Shown here: positions 39,353 through 56,049 of the stretch, one piece after another
Layout: each line of letters opens with the position of its first letter
Position numbering within the stretch: the first letter of the stretch is position 1
Assembly: GCA_019637755.1 (NCBI GenBank)
Contig: JAHBVC010000001.1
Coordinates: 248,001-312,000 of the forward strand
Direction: 5' to 3'
DNA length: 64,000 nt
Origin: Anaerolineales bacterium
Lineage (GTDB): Bacteria > Chloroflexota > Anaerolineae > Anaerolineales > UBA11579
Translations under genes and position numbers: made by a program
The notes under the pieces: model-generated
What the model was told of the DNA's origin: nothing
What the model saw: only the letters and a program-made list of their open reading frames with translations
The model's database searches: none

Positions 39353-40210
39353 TTACTGACTTTGAATAAATTCAACATCCTTTCCTTTGAAGCGGTTGCG
39401 CATCACCTCAATCGCTTCGGCATTGCTATCCACCAGCAGGAAACGGCGGCCAAGCTCCAGCGCAGCGGCGCCGGTGGTGCCGCTGCCGGCAAAGAAATCG
39501 AGCACCAGGTCAGCGGGGTTGGAGGAAGCGCTGAGGATGCGGCGCAGGATGCCCAGCGGCTTTTGCGTCGGATAGCCGGTCTTCTCTTTGCCGGTCGGGC
39601 TGACGATGGTGTGCCACCAGGTATCCGTGGGCAGCTTGCCGCGGGCGGCTTTGGCTTCGCCCGCCAGGGCCGGCGCCATGTAGGGGATGCGCTCGATCGC
39701 TTCGGTATTGAAGGTGTAGTGCTTGCGATCCTTCACATACAGCAAGATGTTATCGTGTTTGGCGGGCCAACGGTTCTTGGCGCGCCCGCCGTAATCATAG
39801 GCCCAGATGATCTCGTTGAGAAAATTCGCCCGGCCAAAGATCTCATCCAACAAGAGCTTGCAGTAGTGCACCTCGCGATAATCAACATGGAAGTAAAAAC
39901 TGCCCTGCGGCGCCAGGACGCGATAGGCCTCTTGCAAACGCGGCGCCAGGAATTCCAGATAATCGTCGAAGGCATCGGCGAAGGCGCGGCGCGCCAGGCG
40001 CGTGGTGCTGTAGCGCCGCCCGCCAAAGCCGGTGCGATCGCCATGCGCATCGCGATCGGTGCGCAGTTGCGTGCGCGCCTGCAACTTGCCAGTGTTGAAG
40101 GGCGGATCGATGTAGATCAAATCCACGCAGCCATCCGGCAGGCCGCGCAGCACGGCCAGGTTATCGCCATGAACCACGCGGGCTTGAAGGGCCAGCTTGG
40201 CGCGCGACAT
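39353..40210 (-). CDS. DNA adenine/cytosine-N4 methyltransferase, beta-class layout
   Basis: A 285-residue SAM-dependent DNA methyltransferase. The catalytic motif IV DPPF (35-38) comes first and the SAM-binding FAGSGTTG motif (~248) near the end, the beta-class order shared with CcrM/HinfI-like enzymes. Between them lies a target-recognition region with YREVHYCKLLLDEIF and ENYPTQKPL-like GYPTQKPLGI. No restriction endonuclease is nearby. ATG 40210 begins 1 nt after the transketolase stop, placing an orphan methyltransferase inside a sugar-phosphate operon. Recognition site is unknown. Confidence 0.88.
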   Translation of the reverse strand: MSRAKLALQARVVHGDNLAVLRGLPDGCVDLIYIDPPFNTGKLQARTQLRTDRDAHGDRTGFGGRRYSTTRLARRAFADAFDDYLEFLAPRLQEAYRVLAPQGSFYFHVDYREVHYCKLLLDEIFGRANFLNEIIWAYDYGGRAKNRWPAKHDNILLYVKDRKHYTFNTEAIERIPYMAPALAGEAKAARGKLPTDTWWHTIVSPTGKEKTGYPTQKPLGILRRILSASSNPADLVLDFFAGSGTTGAAALELGRRFLLVDSNAEAIEVMRNRFKGKDVEFIQSQ

Positions 40211-40211
40211 G

Positions 40212-42239
40212 CTAACGCTTCTTGGTTTTGGGCAGCAAGGCGCGGGCGCGCTTGAGCACGTTGGCAACGCTGAAGCCCAGCTTGTGCATGGCTTCCTCGC
40301 CGGGGGCCGAGGCCCCGAAGCGCTCCAGGCTGACGTGCGCGCTGGCCCACTGCTGCCAGCCCTGCGCCACGCCCGCCTCCACCGAGAGGCGCGCCTTCAC
40401 TTCGGGCGGCAGCACCTTCTCGCGGTAGCTCTTGGACTGGGCTGCAAACAGCTCCCAACTGGGGAAGGACACTAGGCGCACGGTAACGCCATCCTTGGCC
40501 AGCTTGCGGCCGGCTTCAACGATCAGCGCCACTTCAGAGCCGGAGGCCATCAGGATGATATCCGGCTTGGCCTTCTTGCCCCACTGCGCCAGCACATAGG
40601 CGCCCTTGTGCAGCCCGCTGGCGGCGGCGAACTCGCCACCACGGCGGCGATCCAGGGTGGGCAGATCCTGGCGCGAGAAGATCAGCGTGGTGGGATTCTT
40701 GCGATCGCGGATGGCGGCGATCCAGGCTTCGCGCACTTCGTTGGCATCCGCCGGGCGGATGACGCGCAGATTGGGGATGGCGCGCAGCGCGGCCAGATGC
40801 TCAACCGGCTGGTGGGTCGGCCCGTCTTCGCCTACGCCGACGCTGTCATGCGTGAAGACCCAAATGCTGGGATACGGCGAGAGCGCCGAGAGACGCATCG
40901 AGGGACGCATGTAATCCGAGAATACTAAGAACGTAGCGCCAAAGGGAATGATGCCCGGCGTCACGCTCAGGCCGTTGACGATACCGCCCATGGCATGCTC
41001 GCGAATGCCGTAGTGAATACTACGGCCCTGCGGCGTGCTGGGCTGAAAATCTGGCGCCGAGTCAATGAAGGTTTTGGTGGAAGGATGCAAATCGGCGGAG
41101 CCACCCAGCAGATCGGGCAGTTGGCCGGCGATGGCGTTGATCACCTTGCCGGAGGACACCCGCGTGGCCATGCCCTTGGCATCTGCCGGAAACTCCGGCA
41201 GGCCTTGCTCCCAGCCGGCGGGCAGCTCGCCCGCCAGGATGCGCTGCAACTCGGCGTGTTCCTGCGGGTAGGCGGCCTGGTACGCCGTAAGCATGGCCTG
41301 CCAAGCCGCCTGGTGCGCCGCGCCCTGCTCCACCGCGCTGCGGAAGTGCTCGAGCACCTCGCCGGGGATGAGGAAGCGCGGCTCAAGCGGCCAACCGAGG
41401 GCCTGCTTGGCGGCGTTGAGCTCCTCGTCGCCGGGCGGCTCGCCGTGCGCCTTGGCGGTGCCTTGGCGCTTGGGCATGCCGAAGCCGATCACGGTTTTGA
41501 CGCAAATGATCGAAGGGCGCTGGCTCTCGGCCTGGGCGGCGCGTAGCGCGGCATCCACCGCGTCTACATCGTTGCCATCGGCCACCTGCAGCACCTGCCA
41601 GCCATAGGCCGCGAAGCGCTCGGGCACGTTCTCGGTGAAGGCGAGCTGCGTGCTGCCATCGATCGAGATATTGTTATCGTCATACAGGAAGATCAGCTTG
41701 CTGAGTTGAAGATGGCCGGCCAGCGAGGCGGCCTCGGAGGTGATGCCCTCCATCAGATCGCCATCGGTAACAATCGCATAGGTAAAGTAATCGAAGATGG
41801 TGTGCCCGGGGCGGTTAAAGCGCGCCGCCAGGTGCTGCTGGCCGATGGCCATGCCAACTGCATTGGCAAAGCCCTGCCCCAGCGGGCCGGTGCTGGTTTC
41901 TACGCCAGGGGTGACCCAGTATTCAGGGTGGCCGGGGGTCTTGCTCTCCCATTGGCGGAATTGCTGGATATCTTCGAGTGTAAGCGGGTAGCCAGTGAGG
42001 TGCAGCAGCGAGTAGAGCAGCATGGAGCCATGCCCGCCGGAGAGCACAAAGCGGTCTCGATTGCCCCAGGCAGGGTCCTGCGGGTTGTGGCGCAGATGGC
42101 GCGCCCACAAAGCATAGGCCATCGCTGCCGCCCCCATCGGCAGGCCGGGGTGCCCGGAATTGGCCTTTTGAATCGCATCCGCCGAGAGAAAGCGAATGGT
42201 ATTGATCGCACGTTGTTGAAGGTCTTTGGAGGTATCCAT
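40212..42239 (-). CDS. tkt: Transketolase
   Basis: A 675-residue TPP enzyme of the pentose phosphate pathway. The TPP motif is TDGDLMEGI...DDNN with NNISIDG. Other landmarks are [15 protein letters not shown] near the start and [21 protein letters not shown] in the pyrimidine domain. ATG 42239 follows a TAGAAT box by 10 nt, so the leader is very short. First gene of tkt-methyltransferase-tal. Confidence 0.96.
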
Positions 42240-42330
42240 GATATAGGCGATTCTACTCTACCTGCCAACCATAAGCTATACCTAGGTGAAGAAACGCGCC
42301 CCCAGCTATAGTAAGATTGCGGTTAACCCT

Positions 42331-43116
42331 ATGGCACGCGAAGATAAAACTCTCTTTCCCACGTTAGGCGAATGGCGCGGCACGCGTGACACCTTGCATG
42401 CCTATTGCAAAGTGCTCAGCGCGATCCGTGCCGCATTCACGCCGGAGCAGCCGCACCACGCGCACCTCAGCTTGCGTGTCTACACCTCCGGGCTAACCAC
42501 TACGCCGATCTCCTTCCCCGAGGACCCGGCGCAGACTTTCGCCTTGAGCTTGGATCTACGCAACCATTACCTGATCCTGAGCACCAGCGGCGGCCAGGTG
42601 CAGCAAATTCGCCTGAGCGAGGGCCTGAGCGCCAGCCAACTGGGTGATGAGCTGGTGGCGCGGCTGGCTGAGCTCGGCGTGCAGGGCAAGGTGAACAAGA
42701 AGAGTTACCAAAGTGACGCGCGGCGCGAATATGCCTTGGATGACGCCGAACGTTTTTTTGCCGCGCTGATGCGCAGCCAGCAAATCTTTGATCAGTTGCG
42801 CAAGCAACTGGGCGCCGATTGCGGCGTGGTGCAAATGTGGCCGCGCCAATTTGATCTGGCCTTCGCGGCGCCGAACGGCGAAGATGGCACGCTGACCTTT
42901 GGCTTCGCCACCCCGCCAGGCAACGAATATTTCTATGCCAGCCCGCAGCCCTTCGCCGCCACGCTGACCCAGCAGGCGCTGCCCGCCGAGGCGCGCTGGC
43001 ATAGCGAGGGCTGGCACGGCGCCCTGCTGCCTTACACCGCAGTGGAAGGCAAGCCAGATGGCGCCGAGCGCCTGCTCGCTTTCCTGCAGGCCGTGACCGC
43101 CCTCGCCGCGCCCTAG
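42331..43116 (+). CDS. DUF5996 family protein
   Basis: A 261-residue protein. The start FPTLGEWRGTRDTLHAYCKVLSAIR matches the DUF5996 opening (L-x-x-W-x-x-T-x-D-T-L-H). The end is HGALLPYTAV and a helical tail. Function is unknown. ATG 42331 is chosen over the GTG at 42286; TATAGT/TAAGAT boxes lie 13-19 nt upstream. It is divergent from transketolase. Confidence 0.72.
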   Translation: MAREDKTLFPTLGEWRGTRDTLHAYCKVLSAIRAAFTPEQPHHAHLSLRVYTSGLTTTPISFPEDPAQTFALSLDLRNHYLILSTSGGQVQQIRLSEGLSASQLGDELVARLAELGVQGKVNKKSYQSDARREYALDDAERFFAALMRSQQIFDQLRKQLGADCGVVQMWPRQFDLAFAAPNGEDGTLTFGFATPPGNEYFYASPQPFAATLTQQALPAEARWHSEGWHGALLPYTAVEGKPDGAERLLAFLQAVTALAAP

Positions 43117-43121
43117 CCCCA

Positions 43122-43814
43122 ATGCCCCAGATCATTGCCGTTGGCTCCGGGTATCACGCCATTGGGCGGCGTGGTAGCCATTTGGAGCGTTACCTGCTGG
43201 CGGCCACGCGCACGCGCCGGCCGCGGCTGTGCTACCTGCCCACCGCCGCCGGTGACCCGCCTGCCCATATTCGCCGGGTTGCGCGCATCTTCAGCGCCCT
43301 CGGCGCACGCGTCACGCACCTCAATTTATTGGAGCCCAATACCGCTGATGTAGCCAAGCTCTTGCTGGCTCAGGATCTGATCTGGGTGGGCGGCGGCAAC
43401 ACGCGCAACATGCTGGCGCTGTGGCGCGCCTGGGACGTGGACGCCGCCCTGCACAAAGCCTACCAACGTGGCACTGTATTAGCCGGCGGCAGCGCCGGGG
43501 CGATCTGCTGGTTCGAGTATGGCATCACCGATTCGGTACCCGGCCGCCTGCAGCCGATGGAGTGCCTGGGTTGGCTGCCCGGCAGTTGCTGCCCGCATTA
43601 TGACAGCGAGCCTAAGCGCCGCCCCAGCTACCGCAAACAATTGCTCGCTGGGCTGCCGGCAGGCCTGGCGCTGGATGATTTCGCCGCGGCGCACTACATA
43701 GATGGCCAGTTGGCCAAGGTGCTGAGCTTCGCGCCCGGGGCGCAGGCCTATCAAGTCAGCGTGGCGGCTGGCCGCGTGCAAGAGCAGGTGCTGCTCGCGC
43801 AGCCACTACCCTAG
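43122..43814 (+). CDS. Peptidase S51-like protein (dipeptidase E/cyanophycinase family)
   Basis: A 230-residue Class-I-glutamine-amidotransferase-like fold. The nucleophile elbow is AGGSAGAICWF, with Ser in GGSAGA; IWVGGGNTRNMLALW supplies the second conserved segment, and a His occurs in SCCPHYDSE. Family members cleave aspartyl dipeptides or cyanophycin. Starts 6 nt after the DUF5996 stop, so the two are probably co-transcribed. Confidence 0.85.
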   Translation: MPQIIAVGSGYHAIGRRGSHLERYLLAATRTRRPRLCYLPTAAGDPPAHIRRVARIFSALGARVTHLNLLEPNTADVAKLLLAQDLIWVGGGNTRNMLALWRAWDVDAALHKAYQRGTVLAGGSAGAICWFEYGITDSVPGRLQPMECLGWLPGSCCPHYDSEPKRRPSYRKQLLAGLPAGLALDDFAAAHYIDGQLAKVLSFAPGAQAYQVSVAAGRVQEQVLLAQPLP

Positions 43815-43828
43815 CAGGCCCAAGGTTA

Positions 43829-43864
43829 AAAAAAAACAGCCCACCGGTGGTGGGCTGTTTTTGT
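43829..43864. terminator. Bidirectional terminator
   Basis: The stem acagcccacc/ggtgggctgt has A and T runs, between convergent genes. Confidence 0.9.
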
Positions 43865-43879
43865 GTGTGTAGCTAGCAG

Positions 43880-44509
43880 CTACTTCTTGTCGCCGTCGGC
43901 GGCGGGGGCAGCAGCTTCGCCGCCCTGCTGGCCGTTGGTGCTTTCGGCTTCGGCCACCGGGGCGGAGGCCACTACCAGCAACTCGTCGCCATCGCTCAAC
44001 ACGGTGACGTTGGCCGGCACCACGAGATCGCGCACGAAGATGCCATCACCGAAGTTCTCCAGGCTGGATACATCGACAGTGAAGTTATCCGGCAGGTCTT
44101 GTGGCAGCGCTTCCACCTCAACGTACTCGAGGCCGTTGACCAGCAGACCACCAAGGTTGGAGACCACCGGGGCCTTGCCTTCCAGCACCACGCGCACTTC
44201 CGCACGCACAGTTTCGCTCAGCGAGACGGCCAGCAAGTCCACATGGGTCAGCTCGCGCAAGATCGCATCGACCTGGAAATCACGCACCAGGGCGTTATGC
44301 TCCTCACCATCCAGGTCAATCTGCACCAAGGTGGAGTAGTTGATGCGGCGCATCACTTTCGAGGCTTCACCGCGATCCAGCGTGATCGCAATTGGCTTTT
44401 CTACATGGCGGCCATACAGCACGGCCGGCAGCTTGCCTTCACGGCGCAGTTTGGAGACCTTCTTGCCTACCAGGTCACGGCGTGAAGCTTTAAGGGTTAC
44501 CCGTTCCAT
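43880..44509 (-). CDS. rplY: 50S ribosomal protein L25/general stress protein Ctc
   Basis: A 209-residue long-form L25 (Ctc) binding 5S rRNA. The L25 domain (~1-95) has ERVTLKASRRDLVGKKVSKLRREG and LPAVLYGRHVEKP. The C-terminal TL5-like domain (~96-185) has VDLLAVSLSETVRAEV. A low-complexity Ala/Gly/Glu tail ends DGDKK. ATG 44509 has a ggatggaag ribosome site; the upstream open frame is the mRNA leader. A strong promoter lies ~135 nt upstream. Confidence 0.93.
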   Translation of the reverse strand: MERVTLKASRRDLVGKKVSKLRREGKLPAVLYGRHVEKPIAITLDRGEASKVMRRINYSTLVQIDLDGEEHNALVRDFQVDAILRELTHVDLLAVSLSETVRAEVRVVLEGKAPVVSNLGGLLVNGLEYVEVEALPQDLPDNFTVDVSSLENFGDGIFVRDLVVPANVTVLSDGDELLVVASAPVAEAESTNGQQGGEAAAPAADGDKK

Positions 44510-44587
44510 TCTTCCATCCTTGGGATGCCTCTCACGACGCGGCCAGGCCGCGCCATTACCAATCATCCCGCTAGACCATTCCGCGAA

Positions 44588-44606
44588 AACGTCTCCGCAA
44601 CGGAGA
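44588..44606 (-). promoter_or_regulatory. Leader hairpin in the rplY 5' UTR
   Basis: The perfect stem cgtctccg/cggagacg with loop of 3 is followed on the minus strand by TTTT. It resembles a short terminator inside the leader, 79 nt before the rplY start. A second hairpin (gcgcggcc/ggccgcgt) lies closer to the gene. Confidence 0.5.
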
Positions 44607-44646
44607 CGCCAGCTTGCCCATGCACGCTGAGTGGAATGCGAGCGGA

Positions 44647-44675
44647 ATTTTAGCCCATCCCCCGTCCCACGTCAA
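44647..44675 (-). promoter_or_regulatory. rplY promoter
   Basis: On the minus strand TTGACG (44675-44670) and TAAAAT (44652-44647) are separated by exactly 17 bp, giving a leader of about 130 nt. Confidence 0.8.
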
Positions 44676-44746
44676 ACCACCCGCCCGCCAATAGGCACGC
44701 TTCTTGCAACAAGGGCTTTACTTTGGTCTTTACCGCGGAGGAAATC

Positions 44747-45076
44747 ATGTACGTATTGAATCAAGCTGACACTTTGTTGCTGATGGCGGCTGCCCTGTTT
44801 TTCTTGGGGATGTGCACCCTGGCGATGGGCCTGTTTGTGCTGGTGACGCGCACGCACAGCAAGGATGTCAAGAACCTGAGCAGCCATGCCGCCCAACTGG
44901 TGCAAAAAGGCATTGCCGAAGACGTGGCCCAATTAGTTAGCGGCGCCAGCGCCTTGCTGGAAGGCGTGCAGCAATTGGTCAAGACGGCTACTGGCGTCGG
45001 CATCTTTTTGACTTCGCTGGGCCTGGCCTTGATGGCGGGCGGCTTCTGGGTGGTATTGCAAGTCAACTGGGCTTAA
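44747..45076 (+). CDS. Small two-helix membrane protein, first gene of the TPR/peptidase operon
   Basis: A 109-residue protein with helices at ~8-34 and ~82-105 and a polar middle (~36-78) predicted amphipathic (HAAQLVQKGIAEDVAQLV). No family is recognised. ATG 44747 has a strong gcggagg ribosome site; the TTG further up has none. It ends 21 nt before the giant TPR gene, so it probably belongs to the same transcript and could anchor the complex at the membrane. Confidence 0.72.
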   Translation: MYVLNQADTLLLMAAALFFLGMCTLAMGLFVLVTRTHSKDVKNLSSHAAQLVQKGIAEDVAQLVSGASALLEGVQQLVKTATGVGIFLTSLGLALMAGGFWVVLQVNWA

Positions 45077-45097
45077 GCCGCAGAACGGATCGGTAGC

Positions 45098-48000
45098 ATG
45101 AGCACATTCATCGCAGACCTCAAGCAATGCCTGCCGCAGGCGGAGTGGCCGCTGGTGGTGGCCGCCTTGCGCAACGAGCCCAGCCTCTGGGCGGCTTTGC
45201 AGCAGGCGCCGTTTGGCGAGCAAGCGCTGGCGGCGGCCGGCGCCGAACGCCAGGCCTGGTCGCCGGCCTTTCTGGGCTTGCTCAGCCTGGAGCAGCCGGC
45301 CACGGTCTACGAGGAACTGCGCGCGGCGGCCTTTGAGCCGGCCGCCGAGAAATTGCGCTACCAATCCGCCAGTGCGTATGAGCAGCTCGCCACCGGGCAG
45401 GAGCGCCCGGCTATGCCCAGCCTGGAGCAAGCCACCCTGCTGGCCCTGGCGCTGCGTGAGCGCCGCCGCGTGCTGGGCGACTGGCAGCACTTGGCCGAAG
45501 AGTTAAGCATCGCACCCAGCAACGAGTGGAAGCTGCCGCTGGCGATCCTGTTCGGCCTGCTGCCGCAGCCACAGGAGCTGCTGGCAACCTTGTTGGCCGA
45601 AACGCAGTCCCCTGATATGCAGTCGTTAGGTTTGCATGCGCTGGTGAGCAACCCGCTCAGCGTGGAGGAGCAAAGCCAGTTATTGCTGGCGGTGGTGGCC
45701 AATCACTCGCTGCCGCATTTACTGGCCGTGCTGCGCCCCTTGGCCCATCTGCATTTGGCATTGGCGCAGCAGCTAGCCAACTACGCATTGGAGAAACTGG
45801 CTGAAGAACCGGCGGCAGGCTCCAGCGATCTGTCGCAAATTGAACGCTTGTCACTGCAAGCGGAAATTCGCCAACTGAGCGGCCAGGCCGGTGAGGCCCT
45901 GCCGTTGCTGCAGGCCGCCTGGGGCGCGGCCCAGCGCATCCAAGCGGAATTGGCCAGCAAGCTGGCGGAGACCGCAGTGGCCAACGGTGAAGCGGCACAG
46001 AGCCTAAGCGAGCCCGCGCTGGCCGTGGCGAAATCGGCGGGCAGCAAGCACCCCGCCGCGCTGGTGGCCGCCGCCCGCGTAGCGCTAAAGTCGAACGACA
46101 CGCAGGAAGCGCAGCGCATGGCCGCCGCGGCGCTGGGCGCGGCGCAAAATTCCAGCGCCGGCGAAAACGCGCCGCTGATGCGCCAACTGGGCGAGATCTT
46201 TATTGAGCTGAAGCTGCCCGAAGCGGCACGCCAGGCCGCCGAGTTGGCTACCCAGCACAGCCCCAACGATGCCGATAGTGCCGCCTTCCTGAGCCGCGTT
46301 TGGAGCCTGTGCAACCAGCCGGAGCAAGCCCTGCAGGCCGCTCACCTGGCCGCCGCTCTGGCGCCCGAGCGCAGCGACCTGCGCCGCCAGTTGGCCAAAG
46401 CGCTGCAAAGCAGCCAGCACGGCCCGGCGGCATATGCCGAGTGGCAAGCGGTGATGGCGCAGGACGCCGAGCCCACTCTGGAAGATATTTTTGGCCTGGC
46501 GCAGGCCGCGCTGGCCGCTGATGAATTGAGCGAATGCATTCAGGCCTGCCAGCGCGTGCTGGCCGTGCAAGCCACCCACGGTGGCGCGCACGCCTTGCTG
46601 GGCAAAGCTTTGCTGGCCCAGGACGATAGCAACAGCGCCATCGAGCACCTGCGCCGCGCTACCGAGCTGGCGCCGGCACAGAGCGAAGCCTGGATCGTGC
46701 TGGCGGATCTGTTGCGCGGCCAAGGCGATTGGCAAGCGGCGCGCGATACGCTGTTCAATGCGCAGCAGTACACCCCGCCCAGCGCGGAACTGCAGCAACT
46801 GCTCGCCGAAGTGTATGTAGCACTTGAGGAATATGAAGCCGCGCTCGGCGCGCTGACCCGCGCGGCGGAATTGCTCACCGAAACGCACAGCCCGGCCTTG
46901 GCACAGCGCATCGCGCTGCAGCTGGGCCGCTTGCAACGCCAGCTCGGCCACCGCAACCAGGCGCGCCACACGCTGGAGCGCGCCGTGCACACCTACCCCA
47001 CACACCCCGGCTTGCAGCACGCGCTGGGCCAACTACTTCTAGAAGTGGATGAGCCCGTTGCCGCACTCGCCGCACTGGCCGTCACCTTGCAGGCCGAGCC
47101 ACAAAATGTAGATGCCCTGCTCGACGCGGCGGCGGCGCACATGCGCAACCAGGCGGCGGCGGATGCCGAAGCCTGCCTGCGCCGCGCGCTGGAGTTGGCC
47201 CCCAGCCCGGTGGCCATCGCCCGCCTGGCCGAGGCGCTGGCCGCGCAGGAGAAGCCGGCCGAGGCGCTGCGCGAATACGAAGCCGCGCTGCGCAGCGAGC
47301 TGGCACAGGACGCAGAGTGGCAGCCGCGCCTAGCACTGGGCAAAGCCGTGGCGCAGGCCCAGTTGGGCCAGCATGCCGAGGCGATCGCCCAACTGGAAGC
47401 GCTGGATGCCCAGACCCCCGGAGATTTGCACGTGTTGCAGGCGCTGTGCCGCGCCTATAGCCAGGCCGGCCGCGCGGCAGAAGCCTTCCAGATCGCCAGC
47501 AAAGTGTATATGACCAGCGCCAAGGATGAAGATACGGTGCTGTGGTTCGCCGAACAAGCCCAGGCGCTCGGCCAGGGCGAAGATGCCCGCCGCGCCCTGG
47601 ATAAGAGCATTCGCCAGCACAACAACCCGGCGCACATCCTGCGCCTGGCTGAGATGGAATGGCAAGACGGCGCCCACGAGAAAGCAGTGGATACGCTGGC
47701 CAGCCTGCTGCGCAGCGCGAACAGCCAGGCACTGGCGCAGGCGGGGCGCTTCCTGCTGGAGCGCCGCGCCGCCGCTACCAGTGTGTCGTATTTCAAGCGT
47801 GCGCTGGAGCTGGAGCCGTTGCCCAGCCTGCTCGATGCGCTGACCGAAGCATACGAACACAGCCAGCAATGGAACGAAGCGCTGGAGACGGTGGAGAAGA
47901 GCCTGGCCGCCGAGCCCGGCCAGGGCAACTTGCTGGCGCGCAAAGCGCGCATCCTGCAGGCCGCCGGGCGGCCGCAAGCCGCCCTGGAAACGCTGGAGCA

Positions 48001-50215
48001 AGCCTTGGAGCGCATGCCGGCCGACCTGGGCCTGTTGGCTAACAAGGCACGCTTGCTGCGTGCCGCCGGCGAATGGAGCGCAGCGCTGAGCGCCGCCGAA
48101 AAAGCCTTCCAGCTTGATCCCAGCCATATGCCGCTGCTGCAACTGGCGGTAGAGTTGGCGTTGGCCACCCTGCAGCCGGAACGGGCACGCAGCCTGCTGG
48201 CCGCCGCCGAGTGGGCCGGCGCGCCTTCGCTGGAGCTGGCCTGCTTGCAAGCCGAACTGGCGCTGGAGAGCAACGAAGAGCTGGCCGCCGCCCAGGCGCT
48301 GGCCCCGGCGCTGGAAGCCGGCGAGCAGCACCCGCGCGTATTGGCCATTCAAGCGCGTTTGGCAGCGCGCCGCGGCGATAGCCGCCAGGCGGAGCAATTG
48401 TTCAGCCAGGCGCTGGCCTTGGTCGATACGCAACTCAGTGATACGCAAGACGTCTTTACGTTGATCAGTCTGGCACGCGCCGCGCAAGCCGTGCACACCT
48501 ACGAAGCCGCGGTACACCTGCTGCAATTGGCCACCAAACTCAGCCCGGCGATGGCACTGGCCCAGTTTGCGCTGGGCAAGGCCATCGTGCTGCGCGCCGA
48601 ATGGCAGCAACTGTGCGCCGCTAGCCAGATGCAGGCCAGCAGCCCCGCCGAAGTCAGCGCCGGTGCTGCGCTGGCCAGCGCACGGGCCGCCTTCAGTGCA
48701 GCGCGCAGCCAGGCGCCGCTGGCGGCCGCACGCAGCCAGATCGAAAACTGGCTGGCGCGCGCCAGCCTGCGCTTTGGCGCCGCGCCGGCAGAGGACGCCC
48801 TGCCGCACGGCTTCCCCAGCAACGCGGGCGAAGCCGCTGCCTTGGTCTACGCCGGGCGCACGCAGGGCGAGCTACCGGCACGCGAAGCACGCGCCAAGAG
48901 CTTCTGGCGTGCGCCTGAAGTGCTCGCCGAACGCGCCTTGGCCTATGCCGAGGCCGACGCGCCCAACGCGCTCAAGTGGATGCTGGGTGCGCTGGAGCAA
49001 AAACCGCAACTGGCCCCCTACCATGCCCTGGCCGCCCACTACGCCCAGCAAGCCGGGCAACTGCAAACCGCGCTGGAGCAGGTTCGCCAGGCCCTGGCCT
49101 TGGCACCGATGCAAGCCGCCTGGCACGCCTTCGCCGGCCGCCTGCTGCAACAGGCCGGCGCCTTGGGCGAGGCCATCGATTATTTCGAACACGCTGTGGC
49201 GATGCAACCCAGTGACGCGCAACGTTATTTTGAACTGGGTGAGGCCCAAATGGCCGCAGAGCAATACCCGCTGGCCCAGCAGAATTTTGCGCAAGCGCAT
49301 GAGCTGCAGCCCGCCAATGCCAGCTACCCCCTGGCGCTGGCCAAGGCCTGCTGGCTGGCCGGCGATGACAAGCAAGCCGCCCAGCACGCCCAAGCAGCCC
49401 AGCAACTGGCTCCCAAATCGCACGCGCCCTTGCTGCTGCAAGCCGAGATCGCTTTGCGCAACAGCCAGGCGGCGCAGGCCAAGGGCCTGGCCGAAGCCGC
49501 GCTGCGCCTGGCACCGACCGATAGCCATAGCCTGACGGTGTATGCGGAGTGCTTGCACGCCAGCGGCGAGGTAGCGGATGCCCTGGCCGTGTTGCAGCGT
49601 GCCGAGCATTACAGCGCTGACAAGTTGCCGATCCAGCTGCGCCGCGCCCAGTTGCTGCCGCTCGAAAAAGGCCTGAGCGAGATCGTAGCGCTCAGCAAGG
49701 CCAACAGCGAGCGCGCCGATGTCTACCTGGCGCTCTCCGAGATGTTGGCCGCCAACGGCGAGCGCCAGGACGCCATCCAGGCGGCCCAGCGCGCCGCCAA
49801 GAAGGCCGAGAGCCTGCCGTTGCCACAGCAGGCGCGCTTGCACCTGCACCTCGGCAAGCTGCTGCAGGCAGATGGCCAGTTGGACCAATCCTTGCATCAT
49901 CTGGATGAGGCCACCGCGCTGGCACCCCACCTCAGCGAAGCGCATATTGAACGTGGCCGGGTGTTCCTCAGCCGGCGGCAGATGAAGCCCGCCCTGCAGG
50001 CTTTTGAGCAGGCCGCACTGGCCGCCCCGCACAGCGCCCAGCCGCATTTGGAAGCCGCGCTGGCGCTGAAGGAAGCCAAAGACTACCCCGCCGCCGAGGC
50101 TGCGTTGCGGCAGGCCGCCACGCTGGCGCCGCGCGACCGCAGTATCCAACGCCAACTGGCCGCGGTGATCGCCCTCAATCTGATCCGCCAGCCACAGGAA
50201 GTGAGTGCGCTATGA
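45098..50215 (+). CDS. Giant tetratricopeptide-repeat protein, 1705 aa
   Basis: A very long alanine- and leucine-rich alpha-solenoid. Repeats with A-x-x-A-L at ~34-residue spacing run through most of the chain: for example GKALLAQDDSNSAIEHLRRA, AEVYVALEEYEAALGALTRA and LGKLLQADGQLDQSLHHLDEA. The first ~200 residues are less regular. No catalytic motif, signal peptide or membrane helix is seen. Its stop overlaps the start of the peptidase-like gene by 4 nt (ATGA), so the two are tightly coupled. The protein probably acts as a scaffold or sensor for its neighbour; this is inferred. Confidence 0.88.
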   Translation: MSTFIADLKQCLPQAEWPLVVAALRNEPSLWAALQQAPFGEQALAAAGAERQAWSPAFLGLLSLEQPATVYEELRAAAFEPAAEKLRYQSASAYEQLATGQERPAMPSLEQATLLALALRERRRVLGDWQHLAEELSIAPSNEWKLPLAILFGLLPQPQELLATLLAETQSPDMQSLGLHALVSNPLSVEEQSQLLLAVVANHSLPHLLAVLRPLAHLHLALAQQLANYALEKLAEEPAAGSSDLSQIERLSLQAEIRQLSGQAGEALPLLQAAWGAAQRIQAELASKLAETAVANGEAAQSLSEPALAVAKSAGSKHPAALVAAARVALKSNDTQEAQRMAAAALGAAQNSSAGENAPLMRQLGEIFIELKLPEAARQAAELATQHSPNDADSAAFLSRVWSLCNQPEQALQAAHLAAALAPERSDLRRQLAKALQSSQHGPAAYAEWQAVMAQDAEPTLEDIFGLAQAALAADELSECIQACQRVLAVQATHGGAHALLGKALLAQDDSNSAIEHLRRATELAPAQSEAWIVLADLLRGQGDWQAARDTLFNAQQYTPPSAELQQLLAEVYVALEEYEAALGALTRAAELLTETHSPALAQRIALQLGRLQRQLGHRNQARHTLERAVHTYPTHPGLQHALGQLLLEVDEPVAALAALAVTLQAEPQNVDALLDAAAAHMRNQAAADAEACLRRALELAPSPVAIARLAEALAAQEKPAEALREYEAALRSELAQDAEWQPRLALGKAVAQAQLGQHAEAIAQLEALDAQTPGDLHVLQALCRAYSQAGRAAEAFQIASKVYMTSAKDEDTVLWFAEQAQALGQGEDARRALDKSIRQHNNPAHILRLAEMEWQDGAHEKAVDTLASLLRSANSQALAQAGRFLLERRAAATSVSYFKRALELEPLPSLLDALTEAYEHSQQWNEALETVEKSLAAEPGQGNLLARKARILQAAGRPQAALETLEQALERMPADLGLLANKARLLRAAGEWSAALSAAEKAFQLDPSHMPLLQLAVELALATLQPERARSLLAAAEWAGAPSLELACLQAELALESNEELAAAQALAPALEAGEQHPRVLAIQARLAARRGDSRQAEQLFSQALALVDTQLSDTQDVFTLISLARAAQAVHTYEAAVHLLQLATKLSPAMALAQFALGKAIVLRAEWQQLCAASQMQASSPAEVSAGAALASARAAFSAARSQAPLAAARSQIENWLARASLRFGAAPAEDALPHGFPSNAGEAAALVYAGRTQGELPAREARAKSFWRAPEVLAERALAYAEADAPNALKWMLGALEQKPQLAPYHALAAHYAQQAGQLQTALEQVRQALALAPMQAAWHAFAGRLLQQAGALGEAIDYFEHAVAMQPSDAQRYFELGEAQMAAEQYPLAQQNFAQAHELQPANASYPLALAKACWLAGDDKQAAQHAQAAQQLAPKSHAPLLLQAEIALRNSQAAQAKGLAEAALRLAPTDSHSLTVYAECLHASGEVADALAVLQRAEHYSADKLPIQLRRAQLLPLEKGLSEIVALSKANSERADVYLALSEMLAANGERQDAIQAAQRAAKKAESLPLPQQARLHLHLGKLLQADGQLDQSLHHLDEATALAPHLSEAHIERGRVFLSRRQMKPALQAFEQAALAAPHSAQPHLEAALALKEAKDYPAAEAALRQAATLAPRDRSIQRQLAAVIALNLIRQPQEVSAL

Positions 50216-53121
50216 ACGAGAACATCAAACAGCAAATTCGTAACGGGAAAGCAATTGACCGCGCCGCGGTACTGACCCTGCTACAGGTCGGTCTCAACGC
50301 CGGTGAAATGCGCTTTGTGCGCCAGGTAGCCGAAGAATGGCTGGATGCCTATCCCTATGATCTGCACATCGAGCTGCTGCGTGCCCAAGCGCTGGCCAAA
50401 GAGGGCAAGAACGATGTTGCCTTCAAGGTACTGCGTAGGCTATGCGAATTGGACCCGCAATTCGTGGAAGCGCAGGAGCAATTGGCCAAGCTGGCACGGC
50501 GAGTGAAGCCGCAGATGGCCGAGGCCGCCCGTGCCGCGGCGGTGGTGCTGCGTGCGCCTTACCAGGCGCCCGGCGACATTCAGCCCTGGGCGCAGCATCT
50601 GGTGCAAGCCCAATTGGCATTCAAGGCCGGTGATCTGGAGCAGGCCGAGCAGCACATTCAGGCCGCCTTGCTGGCCGAGCCGCCCTCCCCGTTGCCCGCG
50701 CTGCTCCACATTCAGTTGGCGCACGCCCAGGGCCTGAGCTGGCTGGCGGTGGAGAATCTGGTCGAGCTGTATCGCAGCCAGTGGCCGCAGTGCTTGCAAC
50801 TGCGCTTGCTGCAAGCCAATTTCTTTATGGAAAGTGGGCAAGAGAACGCCGCGGTGGATCTCTTGCATGATTGTGCCGCCGAAGACGTGAGCGGCCAGGT
50901 GGCCCGCCGCCTGTGGGGCGCCGGCCACCGCTTTGGCGCCCTGTGGCCCAGTGCGCTGACCCAGGTGCTCAGCCTGCCGGTACCGGCCAAGGTGGCCGCC
51001 GGCTTGGGATGGAACCAGATCGATCTGTTGGCCACGCCCATGCCGGACGGCGGAGCTAAAGCCATCGAGGCCCCGGCGATTGAGGCCGTACACATGCCAT
51101 TGCTGGACGAAACCGCCTTGCTCAGCCGCGAGGTGAAGAAAGATTTCGCCAAGTCGATCAAGCTAGAGGGCAAGCGCGCCAAAAGCAAATACGTGCCCGA
51201 TGCAGAGACTTCGGGTGCCGCCGCCCATGTACCCATGCTGAGCGATGATGCGCTGAAGAACCTAAAAGTGAAATGGCAGTTCGCGCGTGGCGGGCGCGCT
51301 GAGGGCACGGCCGCCCCGGCTGCCGATGCGCCGCCACTGGCGCCGGAGTGGGCCACGCCCGAAGCAGCGCGGCCCAGCGAACCGGCGCACAGCCACGCCG
51401 CCAGCGTGCCCAATGATGCCGAACTCGACCAGGCGCTGCAGCAAGCCGTCTCGGCCTTGCCCGAAACCCTGATCGACCTGGAAGAGGTGAATACGGCCAC
51501 GGCCGAGTCGCTGCGGCTGCGAGCCGACGGCCGCTATCCGGCCTATATCCTGCTGAGCTCCAAGGAGAACCTGGTGCGCCAATACGGCGCGGCCGGCTTC
51601 GCCAGCGTGGATGCAAGCTTGCGTGCCGTGGCGACTGCCACAGACAGTCTGCCCAAATGGGGCGCGTATGTCATCTATGTGGATGACCCGCAGTGCATGG
51701 CCAGCTTCGGCTTGAGTGCAGTCAGCCCCAACGACCCGTGGGCGATCAAAAACCTACTGGCCGATCTGGACGAGGCCCTGCGCCAAAACGGAGAGATGAT
51801 CGGCGCGCTGCTGATCGTCGGCGGCCCCAAGATCGTGCCCTTCCATCACCTGCCCAACCCGGTGGATGATGACGACAAAGACGTGCCCTCAGACAATCCG
51901 TATGCCAGCCTGGACGAAAACTATTTCGTGCCCACCTGGCCCGCCGGGCGCCTACCCACTGGCACCGAAACGGAGCCCAGTGCGCTGCTCAAAGCGCTGA
52001 ACCGCATCGAGGCCAGCCGCGAGACAACCACCGCCGCCCAGAATGACCCGCTGCGCCAGTTGATCACGCGCCTGCTGATGCTATTGGGGCTGTGGAAGCC
52101 CAAGCGCAACAGCTTCGGCTATACCGCGCAGGTATGGCAACGTGCCTCGCACTCGGTATACCGCACGATCGGCGAGCCGAAGCGCCTCAGCCTGAGCCCG
52201 CCGACGGAGACCGGCCGGCTGCCTAAAGAAGCCAGCAAGGCTTTGCAAGTGGCCTATTTCAATCTGCATGGGGTAGAAGATGGGCCAGACTGGTACGGCC
52301 AGCGTGACCCGCTGTTGACCCCCAGTGGGCCGGATTACCCGGTGGCGCTCAGCCCCAGTGATGTGGTCAACCACGGGCGCGCCCCGCAGGTGGTGTTTAG
52401 CGAGGCCTGCTTCGGCGCCAACGTATTCAACAAAACCGTAGATAGCGCGCTGGCCTTGAAGTTCATCGATTCGGGCAGCAAGGCCGTGGTCGGCTCCACC
52501 GTCACCTCCTACGGCGCGGTATCCACGCCGCTGATCGCAGCGGACCTGCTAGGGCAAACCTTCTGGCGCTTGCTGAATGAAGGCCACCCGGTGGGCGAAG
52601 CGCTGCGCCGCGCCAAGATCGCCATGGCGCAAACCATGCACCGCCGCCAGGGGTATTTGGATGGCGAAGACCAGAAGACGCTGATCTCCTTCGTGCTGTA
52701 TGGCGATCCGCTGGCGCAAGTCAATGCCGATGCTAGCCTGCCCAAGCGCATCTTGCGCGCCGAGCCGAGCGATCTCAACACAGTCTGCGATCTGCCCGAG
52801 GCGCATAGCTTCGGGCGCCAGGCCAGCCTGGATGCCCTGCCTGAGGAGACTCTGGCTACAGTGAAGGCGGTGGTGAAGGAATACTTGCCGGGCATGCAGG
52901 GGAGTGAAGTGAGCGTGAGCCACGAGCACACCAACTGCCAGAACCACAATTGCCCGCTACCCCACGCGCACAGCGGCGCCAAGCGCGCCATTCTGGCGCC
53001 CAGCCGCAGCCTGGTGACGCTGAGCAAGAAGGTGCCCGGCGCCGGACGCATGCACCCGCAGTATGCGCGCATCACCATGAACGCGCAGGGCAAAGTGGTC
53101 AAGCTGGCGGTGAGCAGATAG
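50212..53121 (+). CDS. TPR protein with gingipain-like (clan CD, C25-type) cysteine peptidase domain
   Basis: A 969-residue protein. An N-terminal TPR-like helical region (~1-250) is followed by a low-complexity Ala/Pro linker. From ~415 there is a caspase-fold region like peptidase C25: LLIVGGPKIVPF, a SDNPYASLDENYF stretch and GRLPTGTETEP. The probable catalytic dyad is H686 (NLHG) and C733 (SEACFGAN), 47 residues apart as in clan CD. A Cys/His cluster (904-920: H904, H906, C909, H912, C914, H918, H920) near the C-terminus may bind metal. No signal peptide is seen, so it is probably cytoplasmic, unlike secreted gingipains. Confidence 0.8.
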   Translation: MNENIKQQIRNGKAIDRAAVLTLLQVGLNAGEMRFVRQVAEEWLDAYPYDLHIELLRAQALAKEGKNDVAFKVLRRLCELDPQFVEAQEQLAKLARRVKPQMAEAARAAAVVLRAPYQAPGDIQPWAQHLVQAQLAFKAGDLEQAEQHIQAALLAEPPSPLPALLHIQLAHAQGLSWLAVENLVELYRSQWPQCLQLRLLQANFFMESGQENAAVDLLHDCAAEDVSGQVARRLWGAGHRFGALWPSALTQVLSLPVPAKVAAGLGWNQIDLLATPMPDGGAKAIEAPAIEAVHMPLLDETALLSREVKKDFAKSIKLEGKRAKSKYVPDAETSGAAAHVPMLSDDALKNLKVKWQFARGGRAEGTAAPAADAPPLAPEWATPEAARPSEPAHSHAASVPNDAELDQALQQAVSALPETLIDLEEVNTATAESLRLRADGRYPAYILLSSKENLVRQYGAAGFASVDASLRAVATATDSLPKWGAYVIYVDDPQCMASFGLSAVSPNDPWAIKNLLADLDEALRQNGEMIGALLIVGGPKIVPFHHLPNPVDDDDKDVPSDNPYASLDENYFVPTWPAGRLPTGTETEPSALLKALNRIEASRETTTAAQNDPLRQLITRLLMLLGLWKPKRNSFGYTAQVWQRASHSVYRTIGEPKRLSLSPPTETGRLPKEASKALQVAYFNLHGVEDGPDWYGQRDPLLTPSGPDYPVALSPSDVVNHGRAPQVVFSEACFGANVFNKTVDSALALKFIDSGSKAVVGSTVTSYGAVSTPLIAADLLGQTFWRLLNEGHPVGEALRRAKIAMAQTMHRRQGYLDGEDQKTLISFVLYGDPLAQVNADASLPKRILRAEPSDLNTVCDLPEAHSFGRQASLDALPEETLATVKAVVKEYLPGMQGSEVSVSHEHTNCQNHNCPLPHAHSGAKRAILAPSRSLVTLSKKVPGAGRMHPQYARITMNAQGKVVKLAVSR

Positions 53122-53148
53122 GAAATTTCAGATTGGAGATTAGAGACT

Positions 53149-53187
53149 AAGGAGTGGCGGCAAAAATCGCCACTCCTTTTTTTTTTA
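53149..53187 (+). terminator. Terminator of the TPR/peptidase operon
   Basis: The stem ggagtggcg/cgccactcc is followed by ten T. Confidence 0.93.
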
Positions 53188-53189
53188 GA

Positions 53190-53955
53190 CAACGATTGGC
53201 ACATCTGAAACCCAGCCTACAGAGCGTAGCATGCTGTGCCGTGCATCCCGAGCGTAGCGAGGGATCCTCGCTACGCGTATGGGTGATACAAGCCCAGCAA
53301 AGAAGACGTGCCAGCAAGGATCCTTCGCTGGAGCACACCAGCAGTCTGGTGTAGCCATCTCTACCCGCTCAGGATGACAGGTAGCTGTAGGGGCGCACAT
53401 GCTGCGCCCCTACACAGCCAAGCCGTCATTCCGGGCGTAGCGAGGAATCCTTTAGGGCATAGCACAGTAAGCCTGTTTGCGCCTGCACGCGGGGATTGCT
53501 TCGTTGTTCAGCGGCTACGCAATGACGACTTGGGGTAGAGGTGCAGCACACTGCACCCCCTACGTTACGCATCCGGCATTTGCGAGGAGGCGCTGCGCAG
53601 CAGTGGCAACCGACGAAGCAATCTGTTTTGTAGACTGCGCTTATAACAACCGCGTGTCATTCTGACCGGGTTTGTACATCCACACCAGAATCGCCGGTGC
53701 CTGACCAGGGAAGAATCCTTGCTGCCAAGTCTTCTATGCATAGCCTGAGTAATTCCTACGCGCTGCAAGGATCCCTCGCTACGCTCGGGATACACAATAA
53801 GTTCGTAGGGTTGCCGCTGGTTTGGAATAAAAGCCTGAACGGAGCTTCCCTAAAGCCCATTTGCGTCTGCACTTGGGGATTGCTTCGTTGTTCAGCGGCT
53901 ACGCCGCTTCACGGCCTCGTAATGACGACCTGGGGTAGAGGCGCAGCATGCTGCC
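53190..53955. repeat. Repeat-rich intergenic region without genes
   Basis: Several copies of the dispersed repeat lie here: cccgagcgtagcgagggatcc near 53246, attccgggcgtagcgaggaatcc near 53428 and a reverse copy near 53770. Copies of the gcgagg...gaagcaatctg element sit near 53580-53625, with reversed gattgcttcgttgttcagcgg copies near 53494 and 53877. A gtaggggcgca/tgcgcccctac hairpin is at ~53386-53412. Open frames here are made of repeat sequence and are not credible genes. Confidence 0.75.
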
Positions 53956-53959
53956 CCCT

Positions 53960-54010
53960 ATCCAACGCAATATGCTGTCAACTGTCAACTGTAGACTGTC
54001 AACTGTCTAG
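53960..54010. repeat. Heptamer array H3 upstream of smpB
   Basis: Units tgtcaac, tgtcaac, tgtagac, tgtcaac and tgtctag end exactly at the TAGAAT box of smpB. Confidence 0.75.
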
Positions 54011-54016
54011 TAGAAT
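54011..54016 (+). promoter_or_regulatory. smpB -10 box, leaderless type
   Basis: TAGAAT lies 6 nt before ATG 54023; no ribosome site is present. A clear -35 is not seen. Confidence 0.55.
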
Positions 54017-54022
54017 CACGCG

Positions 54023-54475
54023 ATGGCAGAAAAAGTAGTCGCCCGCAACCGTAAGGCCAGCCATGATTTCTTCTTGCAAGAGAAATACGAGGCCGGCCTG
54101 GCCTTGCTGGGCAGTGAGATCAAATCCATCCGCGCCGGCCAGGTGAGCCTGAAAGAAGCCTATGTGCGCACCAACGGGCGCGAGGCGTTCTTGGTGAATG
54201 CGCACATCGCACCCTACAGCCAATCGGGCAAGAGCGGGCACGAGCCGCGCCGGGAGCGTAAGCTGCTGCTGCACGCCAAAGAAATCGCCGAGCTCTACGA
54301 AGAAGTCAAGCGCAACGGCAGCACGATCGTGCCGCTACAGATCTATCTCAAAAAGGGCCGCGCCAAACTGGAGATCTCGGTAGCCAAGGGGAAGAAGAAG
54401 TGGGATAAACGCCAGGATATTGCCAAGCGCGACGCGGAACGCGAAATGGCGCGCGCCATGAAGAACCGTGACTAG
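54023..54475 (+). CDS. smpB: SsrA-binding protein SmpB
   Basis: A 150-residue partner of tmRNA in trans-translation. Landmarks are VVARNRKASHDFF, YEAGLALLGSEIKSIRAGQVSLKEAYV, NAHIAPYS and the basic C-terminal helix KGKKKWDKRQDIAKRDAERE. A leaderless promoter is predicted. hutH follows 14 nt later. The tmRNA gene is not in the window. Confidence 0.96.
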   Translation: MAEKVVARNRKASHDFFLQEKYEAGLALLGSEIKSIRAGQVSLKEAYVRTNGREAFLVNAHIAPYSQSGKSGHEPRRERKLLLHAKEIAELYEEVKRNGSTIVPLQIYLKKGRAKLEISVAKGKKKWDKRQDIAKRDAEREMARAMKNRD

Positions 54476-54489
54476 CCACAGGGAGCCGC

Positions 54490-56049
54490 ATGTCAAACAC
54501 GCACATCGAAATTGATGGCGAACATCTTAGCCTGCACGCAGTAGTGCAGGTGGCCCACGGCCAGGCGCACGTGCAACTGGCCGCCAACGCCCGCCAAAGG
54601 GTGGCCCAGGCACAAGCCTGGGTGGAAGAGATCATCCAGCAGGAAAAGCCGGTATATGGCATCAATACCGGCTTTGGCATCTTTGCCGATAAGCAGATCA
54701 CCCCCGCGGATGCCCGCGCGCTCAATCGCAATCTGATCCTGAGCCACGCCACAGGCACCGGCGCGGAGCTGCCTGCTGAGGTGGTGCGGGCGGCGATGCT
54801 GATCCGCGCCAATACGCTGGCGGCGGGGCACTCCGGGGCGCGGCCGGAGCTGATCGAAACCCTGCTGGCGATGCTAAACCAGGGCGTCACGCCGATCATC
54901 CCTGCGCAAGGCTCGCTAGGCTCCTCCGGCGATCTGGCACCGCTGGCGCAACTGGCGCTGGTGCTGAGCACGGATGCCAATGACCGCGAGGAAGACTCGG
55001 GCTGGGCCTGGTACCGCGGTGAACGCCTGCGCGGCAAGGCCGCCATGGCCGCGGCGGGCATCCCGCGCCTGGTGCTGGGCCCGAAGGAAGGCTTGGCCGT
55101 CACCAACGGCGCCACCTTCTCCGCAGCGCTGGGCGCGCTGACGGTGGCGCTGGCCGGAACCCTGCTGGCCGGCGCCTCACTCAGCGCGGCAATGTCGCTG
55201 GAAGCGATGCAAGGCGCCCGCGCCGCGCTGGATGCGCGCCTGCACGCCGCCCGCAAACAACCCGGCCAGATGGCGGTCGCCGAACAACTGCGCACGCTGA
55301 CTGCTGGCAGCACCCTGCTGGATACCGCCGGCCGCGTACAGGACGTGTATTCGCTGCGCTGCGCGCCGCAAGTACAGGGGCCAGCCTACGAGGCCCTCGA
55401 ATACGTGCGCACCGTGATCCTGCGCGAGATCAACGCCGCCACAGACAACCCGCTCTTGTTCGCCAGCCAGGCTGGTGCGGGAGCCGATAGCATTTCGGGC
55501 GGCAACTTCCACGGGGAACCGGTGGGCATGGCGCTCGATTTCCTAAAGATCGCGCTGAGTGAAATTGCCGCCGTATCCGAGCGGCGCAGCTTCCTGCTGC
55601 TGGATAGCAAGATGAGCGGCGGCCTGCCGGCGATGCTGGTGGCGACGCCCGAAGCCGCCGGCTTGAATTCAGGCATGATGATGCTGCAATACACGGCCGC
55701 CTCGCTGGTGCTCGAGAACCAAACGCTCGCCGCGCCTGATTCGGTGCGCTCGTTGCCCACCAGCGCCGGCCAGGAGGATCACAACGCCAACGCCATGACG
55801 GCCGCACGCCACGGCTGGCAGATCGCCCATAACTGTGCGCATGTGCTGGCCATCGAGCTGACCCTGGCGGCGCGCGCCCTGGAGCTGCGCTTGCAGGCGC
55901 ACCCCAGACTGCAGGCCGGGCACGGCACCGCCGCAGCGTTGGCGGCCATCCGCCAGCGCGTGCCGTTCGAGGCCGGGGATGCTTTGTGGGCCCCCGGGGT
56001 CGAGATGGTGAAGGCGATGCTGCTGGCGGGTGAACTCACCGCGGGCTAA
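54490..56049 (+). CDS. hutH: Histidine ammonia-lyase family protein (MIO enzyme with SSG)
   Basis: A 519-residue aromatic amino acid lyase, probably converting histidine to urocanate. The catalytic Tyr is in VYGINTGFG (near 56). Residues SH of NLILSHATGTG and QEDHN fit the histidine branch. The MIO triad, normally Ala-Ser-Gly, reads Ser-Ser-Gly at 145-147 (GSLGSSGDLAPL; codons tcc tcc ggc). Whether this still forms the electrophile is uncertain, though Thr-Ser-Gly is known in some relatives. No hutU, hutI or hutG gene is nearby. A ggag ribosome site precedes ATG 54490. Confidence 0.87.
   Translation: MSNTHIEIDGEHLSLHAVVQVAHGQAHVQLAANARQRVAQAQAWVEEIIQQEKPVYGINTGFGIFADKQITPADARALNRNLILSHATGTGAELPAEVVRAAMLIRANTLAAGHSGARPELIETLLAMLNQGVTPIIPAQGSLGSSGDLAPLAQLALVLSTDANDREEDSGWAWYRGERLRGKAAMAAAGIPRLVLGPKEGLAVTNGATFSAALGALTVALAGTLLAGASLSAAMSLEAMQGARAALDARLHAARKQPGQMAVAEQLRTLTAGSTLLDTAGRVQDVYSLRCAPQVQGPAYEALEYVRTVILREINAATDNPLLFASQAGAGADSISGGNFHGEPVGMALDFLKIALSEIAAVSERRSFLLLDSKMSGGLPAMLVATPEAAGLNSGMMMLQYTAASLVLENQTLAAPDSVRSLPTSAGQEDHNANAMTAARHGWQIAHNCAHVLAIELTLAARALELRLQAHPRLQAGHGTAAALAAIRQRVPFEAGDALWAPGVEMVKAMLLAGELTAG

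Follow-up and report, generated by a model that had tools for sequence, protein, structure and literature searches.

A TPR-protease operon of Anaerolineales co-inherited with a sigma-54 circuit and an FtsZ paralogue: a candidate module for division or septal wall synthesis

What might a bacterial cell do with a gingipain-type peptidase that appears to stay in the cytoplasm and is encoded beside a small membrane protein and a TPR protein of 1705 residues? The question is raised by three genes, P0001, P0002 and P0003, on the + strand of a 64,000-nucleotide stretch of DNA (the window) from a 2.26 Mb Anaerolineales genome. A preliminary description had proposed a three-gene operon encoding a cytoplasmic proteolytic switch held by the TPR scaffold, possibly at the membrane, and had likened it to the type III-E CRISPR TPR-CHAT protease. 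The neighbouring genes, which from their translations we take to be an S51-like peptidase, rplY, smpB and hutH, look ordinary, and an Rfam search of 40000-56000 gave no match. The features of the locus are as follows.

44693..44708, + strand: sigma-54 (-24/-12) promoter, AGGCACGCTTCTTGCA, score 16.0 of 19.6
44747..45076, + strand: P0001, two-TM membrane anchor, 109 aa (ORF, hydropathy, start-site check)
45098..50215, + strand: P0002, TPR scaffold, 1705 aa (ORF, Pfam)
50212..53121, + strand: P0003, N-terminal TPR and C25-type peptidase, 969 aa (ORF, Pfam, dyad alignment)
52267..52269, + strand: codon of the predicted catalytic His686 (43/43 rows)
52408..52410, + strand: codon of the predicted catalytic Cys733 (42/43 rows)
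53149..53178, + strand: intrinsic terminator, 12 pairs followed by a T run

The operon reading holds. The three genes lie on one strand, with a gap of 21 nt between P0001 and P0002 (45077-45097) and a 4-nt overlap between P0002 and P0003, and they end at a strong terminator; no other terminator-like match in the window is as strong, and taken together such matches are not in excess of shuffled sequence (12 against 10.7 expected). The ATG of P0001 at 44747 is preceded by GGAGG at 44737-44741, which resembles a Shine-Dalgarno sequence, a TTG at 44723 being a possible but less likely alternative start, and the -24/-12 site ends about 38 nt before the ATG.

P0003 matches Peptidase_C25 in Pfam over 329 residues (507-835) at E 4.3e-15, with a score of 56.3 bits against a curated cut-off of 23, and TPRs are matched in its N-terminal part. 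Across 23 protease domains of the family, 16 match C25 at E 0.01 or better, and a CHAT match is weak and seen in four; in a best-family test C25 gave 3.7e-16 and CHAT 0.0057, the latter below its cut-off. The preliminary description had picked out H686 and C733 as a clan CD dyad, which we take to be equivalent to the gingipain catalytic residues. The histidine proved invariant in 43/43 aligned rows and the cysteine was kept in 42/43, some rows being near-copies from one genus; the lack of conservation that would have refuted the preliminary description was thus not observed. By profile and dyad, P0003 is a C25-type peptidase and, by best family, not a member of the TPR-CHAT group, and we are fairly confident that the predicted protease is active. 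P0003 could instead be inert, a TPR scaffold with a peptidase domain that serves binding alone, as the loss of the cysteine in one relative (L097_14, with Gly) might suggest; however, the dyad persists in an alignment where many rows share no more than 24-45% identity with P0003, and we consider an inert scaffold very improbable. A 19-residue hydropathy scan revealed no N-terminal hydrophobic stretch in P0003, in agreement with the earlier claim that it lacks a signal peptide, which fits a cytoplasmic location. A PDB profile search with the P0003 domain only ranked gingipain R chains best (E 0.34 and 0.42, neither significant by itself), the search with whole P0003 was dominated by TPR matches, and AF2 models from five-sequence alignments (the window plus L002-L005) reached pLDDT values of 37.8 and 39.3, too low to inform on a caspase-type fold.

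Two further observations were made within this protein family. The relative with Gly for the catalytic Cys (L097:10919-13483, in G393) has no recognisable scaffold gene beside it and is a candidate pseudo-protease. Near the C-terminus of P0003, residues 909-914 (window 52936-52953) form a Cys/His-rich stretch, partly conserved as CxGxxC in relatives, which is a possible metal or redox site.

The two other products are consistent with a membrane anchor and a scaffold. P0001 displays two hydrophobic stretches in the same 19-residue scan, with conserved G/T/F residues around TM2 (25 rows), and P0002 matches many TPR families in Pfam and showed no N-terminal hydrophobic stretch in that scan. The best-conserved part of P0002 is its last ~50 residues, and the last 19 residues of P0003 are likewise among its best-conserved parts, which suggests that these ends serve docking. 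The co-inherited scaffold and the two-helix membrane protein thus fit the earlier picture of a TPR-held protease at the membrane, with the reservation that the scaffold gene is absent in two genomes of one genus (L087, L088). There the genes for kinase, regulator, anchor and protease stand in a row, the TPR scaffold gene having been lost.

The survey of Chloroflexota that the preliminary description had called for found relatives of P0003 in 149/201 genomes of the order and 25/301 of the phylum, mostly as one locus per genome, and the operon is therefore not there by chance. One order match, in G106 (E 8e-4), was treated as absent, leaving 148/201. The locus set (40 fetched regions plus L002-L005, some genomes occurring twice, as with L004 and L103) held 43 loci with the protease family including the window, 35 with the scaffold and 25 with the anchor; members were called automatically, in a way that overlooks divergent ones.

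In many Anaerolineales the operon belongs to a larger cluster of rpoN, a PAS histidine kinase (HK), an NtrC-type regulator (RR), anchor, scaffold, protease, a gene that we call orfG, and an FtsZ homologue (FtsZ2), neither the additional genes nor the sigma-54 promoter having featured in the earlier account. In several families rpoN-HK-RR lies upstream of the operon and orfG with the FtsZ homologue downstream; the full order rpoN-HK-RR-anchor-TPR-C25-orfG-FtsZ is found in L072, L074 and L091, L078 is alike with its anchor uncalled, and other loci hold part of the cluster. Among the 201 genomes of the order, rpoN was over the cut-off in 147 (G038, G132 and G173 falling below it), orfG was found in 148, and at least two FtsZ matches in 142. 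The FtsZ counts of this analysis lack one FtsZ (G353, L144) and one FtsZ2 (G022, L152) that the gene caller missed. In the 108 good genomes (>=90% complete, <=5% contaminated), 75 carry all four features (protease, rpoN, orfG, two or more FtsZ matches), 28 carry none of them, and five are mixed (G003, G031, G059, G086, G190). The 28 genomes with none fall in three families (f11, 25; f12, 2; f14, 1), so that they represent at least three joint absences and not 28 independent ones. Furthermore, of 113 genomes in which protease, rpoN and orfG could be placed, the distance to the protease was no more than 20 kb for rpoN in 49, for orfG in 50 and for either in 74. We are highly confident that this is a functional module.

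In the genome of the window the parts occupy three separate loci, with rpoN-HK-RR at about 329456-333975 and orfG-FtsZ2 at about 507345-510049 of G000:C1, and a -24/-12 promoter stands ahead of each, the sites before rpoN and orfG-FtsZ2 being equal to that of the operon. Promoter scores of at least 13 were obtained for 17/25 anchor genes (17/20 in the order, 0/5 outside), 15/22 orfG and 5/8 rpoN genes, against a background of 17/557 other genes and none in reversed controls. The search reached 120 nt into called ORFs, as some starts are mis-called, and four anchor sites (L002, L071, L081, L085) lie inside called ORFs. A pattern search of the window's genome returned 30 sites, whereas the reversed pattern gave 7; the majority of the 30 fell inside called ORFs, and only four were intergenic and 10-100 nt ahead of a substantial ORF, the fourth preceding a LytR_cpsA_psr gene. 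In family f12, the motif TGGCAYN5TTGCA was rare in rpoN-negative genomes (G052 0, G063 0, G088 1, G096 0, G112 1, G126 1, G140 1) and more frequent in rpoN-positive ones (G012 10, G026 8, G039 6, G072 12, G080 8, G104 7, G147 13). The contrast is less clean in other f12 genomes (G133 9 and G154 5, both without an rpoN match; G161 1, incomplete and rpoN-positive; G119 6, rpoN-positive), and counts of at least 10 occur in some f11 genomes without rpoN over the cut-off.

The components of a sigma-54/NtrC system were found: RpoN with its AID, CBD and DBD, an activator with receiver and AAA domains, and the -24/-12 promoters. The genome of the window has one rpoN match, one strong bEBP (7.5e-71) and two weak AAA matches. 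Its activator, of 393 aa, stops at the AAA lid, and no DNA-binding Pfam family was found in the two activators scanned. With a single strong bEBP that lacks a DNA-binding domain, one input probably drives a small sigma-54 regulon that contains the module itself. The immediate adjacency of rpoN-HK-RR could also indicate a cut-and-release loop, in which the protease acts back on the kinase or the activator of the sigma-54 circuit and plays no part of its own in division. Outside the order, however, the core operon is present without rpoN nearby, and we regard such a loop as unlikely.

FtsZ2 carries Tubulin and FtsZ_C domains and the GTP-binding G-box, which places it in the FtsZ family, and its C-terminal peptide is kept in most sequences. 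The split between FtsZ1 and FtsZ2 was supported 100/100 in a tree with long branches inside FtsZ2. The T7-loop aspartate, presumably at the position of E. coli D212, is replaced by His, Asn or Ala in 20/21 FtsZ2 sequences (the exception being G039) and is kept in 9/9 FtsZ1. In E. coli FtsZ, D212G is reported to lower GTPase activity about tenfold and to leave rings static (PMC7320174). By analogy with D212G, FtsZ2 filaments should turn over slowly; we describe FtsZ2 as FtsZ-like and do not claim a working FtsZ GTPase. In the loci read, the gene directly ahead of FtsZ2 is orfG, with a product of about 445 aa (e.g. L109:7346-8683). As this product matched no Pfam family at a useful E in 18/18 sequences scanned, and a PDB search gave chance-level matches only, no function is claimed for it; among such chance-level matches, those of its last third were to S-layer chains.

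Outside the order, the core operon keeps different company. In family f71, where 21/26 genomes have the protease, a division or peptidoglycan gene stands beside the core operon in 12/14 loci read, which is 12/12 of those readable, as the contigs of the remaining two (G479, G480) end too soon. Three of these loci (G330, G500, G492) have the operon embedded in the dcw cluster, with mraW on one side and ftsI on the other, in the order mraW-orf386-anchor-TPR-C25-(121-128 aa)-ftsI-mraY, and G330 continues with a Mur ligase, ftsW, a second Mur ligase, ddl, ftsA and ftsZ. In G494 the downstream half of the mraW-ftsI arrangement is visible, a class B PBP lies upstream of the operon in G493, G497 and G491, and an Amidase_2 gene neighbours it in G353, G485, G478, G481 and G487, as it does upstream in G466 of another family. 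At seven other non-order loci (L093, L095-L098, L100, L101), no recognised division gene was found among the annotated neighbours. Among 15 protease-bearing genomes outside the order, five lack rpoN and ten have it, with none listed near the protease, and a single FtsZ match was found in five of six examined. With dcw and wall neighbours present, rpoN not nearby and FtsZ2 mostly absent, the older core would be anchor, scaffold and protease, a division- or wall-linked unit to which sigma-54 and FtsZ2 seem to have been added in Anaerolineales. Within the dcw cluster of G330, two FtsZ_C matches occur in tandem (G330:C13:2198-3705), one of which was recovered by the gene caller.

The sigma-54 circuit, the dcw and peptidoglycan neighbours, orfG and FtsZ2 point to division or wall synthesis more than to a generic or CRISPR-like switch. 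We somewhat favour a role of the module in division or septal wall synthesis, the operon encoding a membrane-docked TPR protease that in this order would be switched by sigma-54 together with a slow-turnover FtsZ; the balance tips in the same modest measure towards both statements. The gene linkage is strong. Gene order, co-inheritance, promoters, the dyad, the T7 substitution and the dcw and peptidoglycan neighbours are seen in the sequences themselves, whereas the mechanism, substrate and phenotype that follow are inferred. P0001, with its two TM segments, would anchor P0002, the TPR scaffold, and P0003, the cytoplasmic cysteine protease, in a membrane-docked complex. On some signal, the PAS histidine kinase would phosphorylate the activator, which would turn on sigma-54 at a few promoters, including those of its own operon, the protease operon and orfG-FtsZ2. 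FtsZ2 would bind GTP and, without the T7 aspartate, form filaments of slow turnover, by itself or together with FtsZ1, and the anchored protease would cut a division or scaffold protein and so commit the cell to the slow-filament state or end it. That the module acts as a proteolytic trigger on a divisome substrate is a tentative proposal. Equally tentative is a separase-like version, in which the TPR-clan CD enzyme, encoded in places inside the dcw cluster, times septation by cleaving a divisome or scaffold protein and Anaerolineales have added their own sigma-54 switch and a GTPase-impaired FtsZ for an alternative division mode, such as filament fragmentation or a non-dividing state. We know of no caspase-clan cysteine protease in the bacterial divisome. 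If the proposal is true, a deep bacterial phylum would control division by proteolysis and furnish a naturally occurring example of slow FtsZ filaments, and Chloroflexota would supply candidates for testing.

Each component is of a known kind and the novelty is their combination, at system level: order-wide, nearly all-or-none, with its own sigma factor and an FtsZ paralogue bearing a lesion at the hydrolysis residue. No description of this combination was found in the titles and abstract openings of the open-licence literature. Gingipain R resembles P0003 in the match over most of the Pfam C25 profile (PF01364) and in the His/Cys dyad; unlike it, P0003 has no signal-peptide-like start, carries N-terminal TPRs, is predicted to be cytoplasmic and is encoded with an anchor and a scaffold. 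The module may work like separase (family C50), described as a large clan CD protease linked to cell division (PMC4626109), to which no sequence match was found, or like Craspase, in both cases as an analogy only. The type III-E protein Csx29 (Craspase) shares the TPR-clan CD protease combination and, according to PMC10028731, has a sigma factor (CASP-sigma) among its associated genes, which could make the module an anti-phage or suicide system. That factor is ECF in type III-E and sigma-54 here; moreover, P0003 has C25 as its best family, the protease mostly occupies a single locus per genome across the order, and its neighbours are housekeeping or dcw genes. A defence role was rejected, as P0001-P0003 and the 23 protease domains gave no PADLOC match and the protease was found in no viral contigs, and we give it little credence. 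The Chlamydia CtcC-sigma-54 circuit, tied to membrane reorganisation (PMC7482065), likewise has an activator without a DNA-binding domain; the sites of the module, unlike those of that circuit, cover the circuit itself, the protease operon and the FtsZ paralogue. A second FtsZ encoded away from the dcw cluster is reported for few bacteria (PMC9871819), and chloroplasts have FtsZ1/FtsZ2; FtsZ2 here differs in having lost the T7 aspartate and in being coupled to sigma-54 and a protease.

The division reading has also to be weighed against a sigma-54 programme for the envelope or surface (secreted proteins, wall polymers). In such a programme, envelope factors would be matured or controlled by the protease and FtsZ2 would only position it, division not being the target. 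Sigma-54 has been proposed as a controller of the bacterial exterior (PMC3162934), and both the Amidase_2 neighbours and the site ahead of the LytR_cpsA_psr gene agree with this. Against it, an operon embedded between mraW and ftsI and an FtsZ paralogue with a retained C-terminal peptide point to the septum, and we hold the envelope programme to be possible though rather improbable. In four larger genomes (G053, G064, G013, G180), sigma-54-like sites mostly stand ahead of genes whose products are predicted to be membrane-bound or secreted, a pattern equally compatible with an envelope programme and with division. One membrane family behind such sites recurs in G053 and G064 (L162 and L164, in the range L161-L180).
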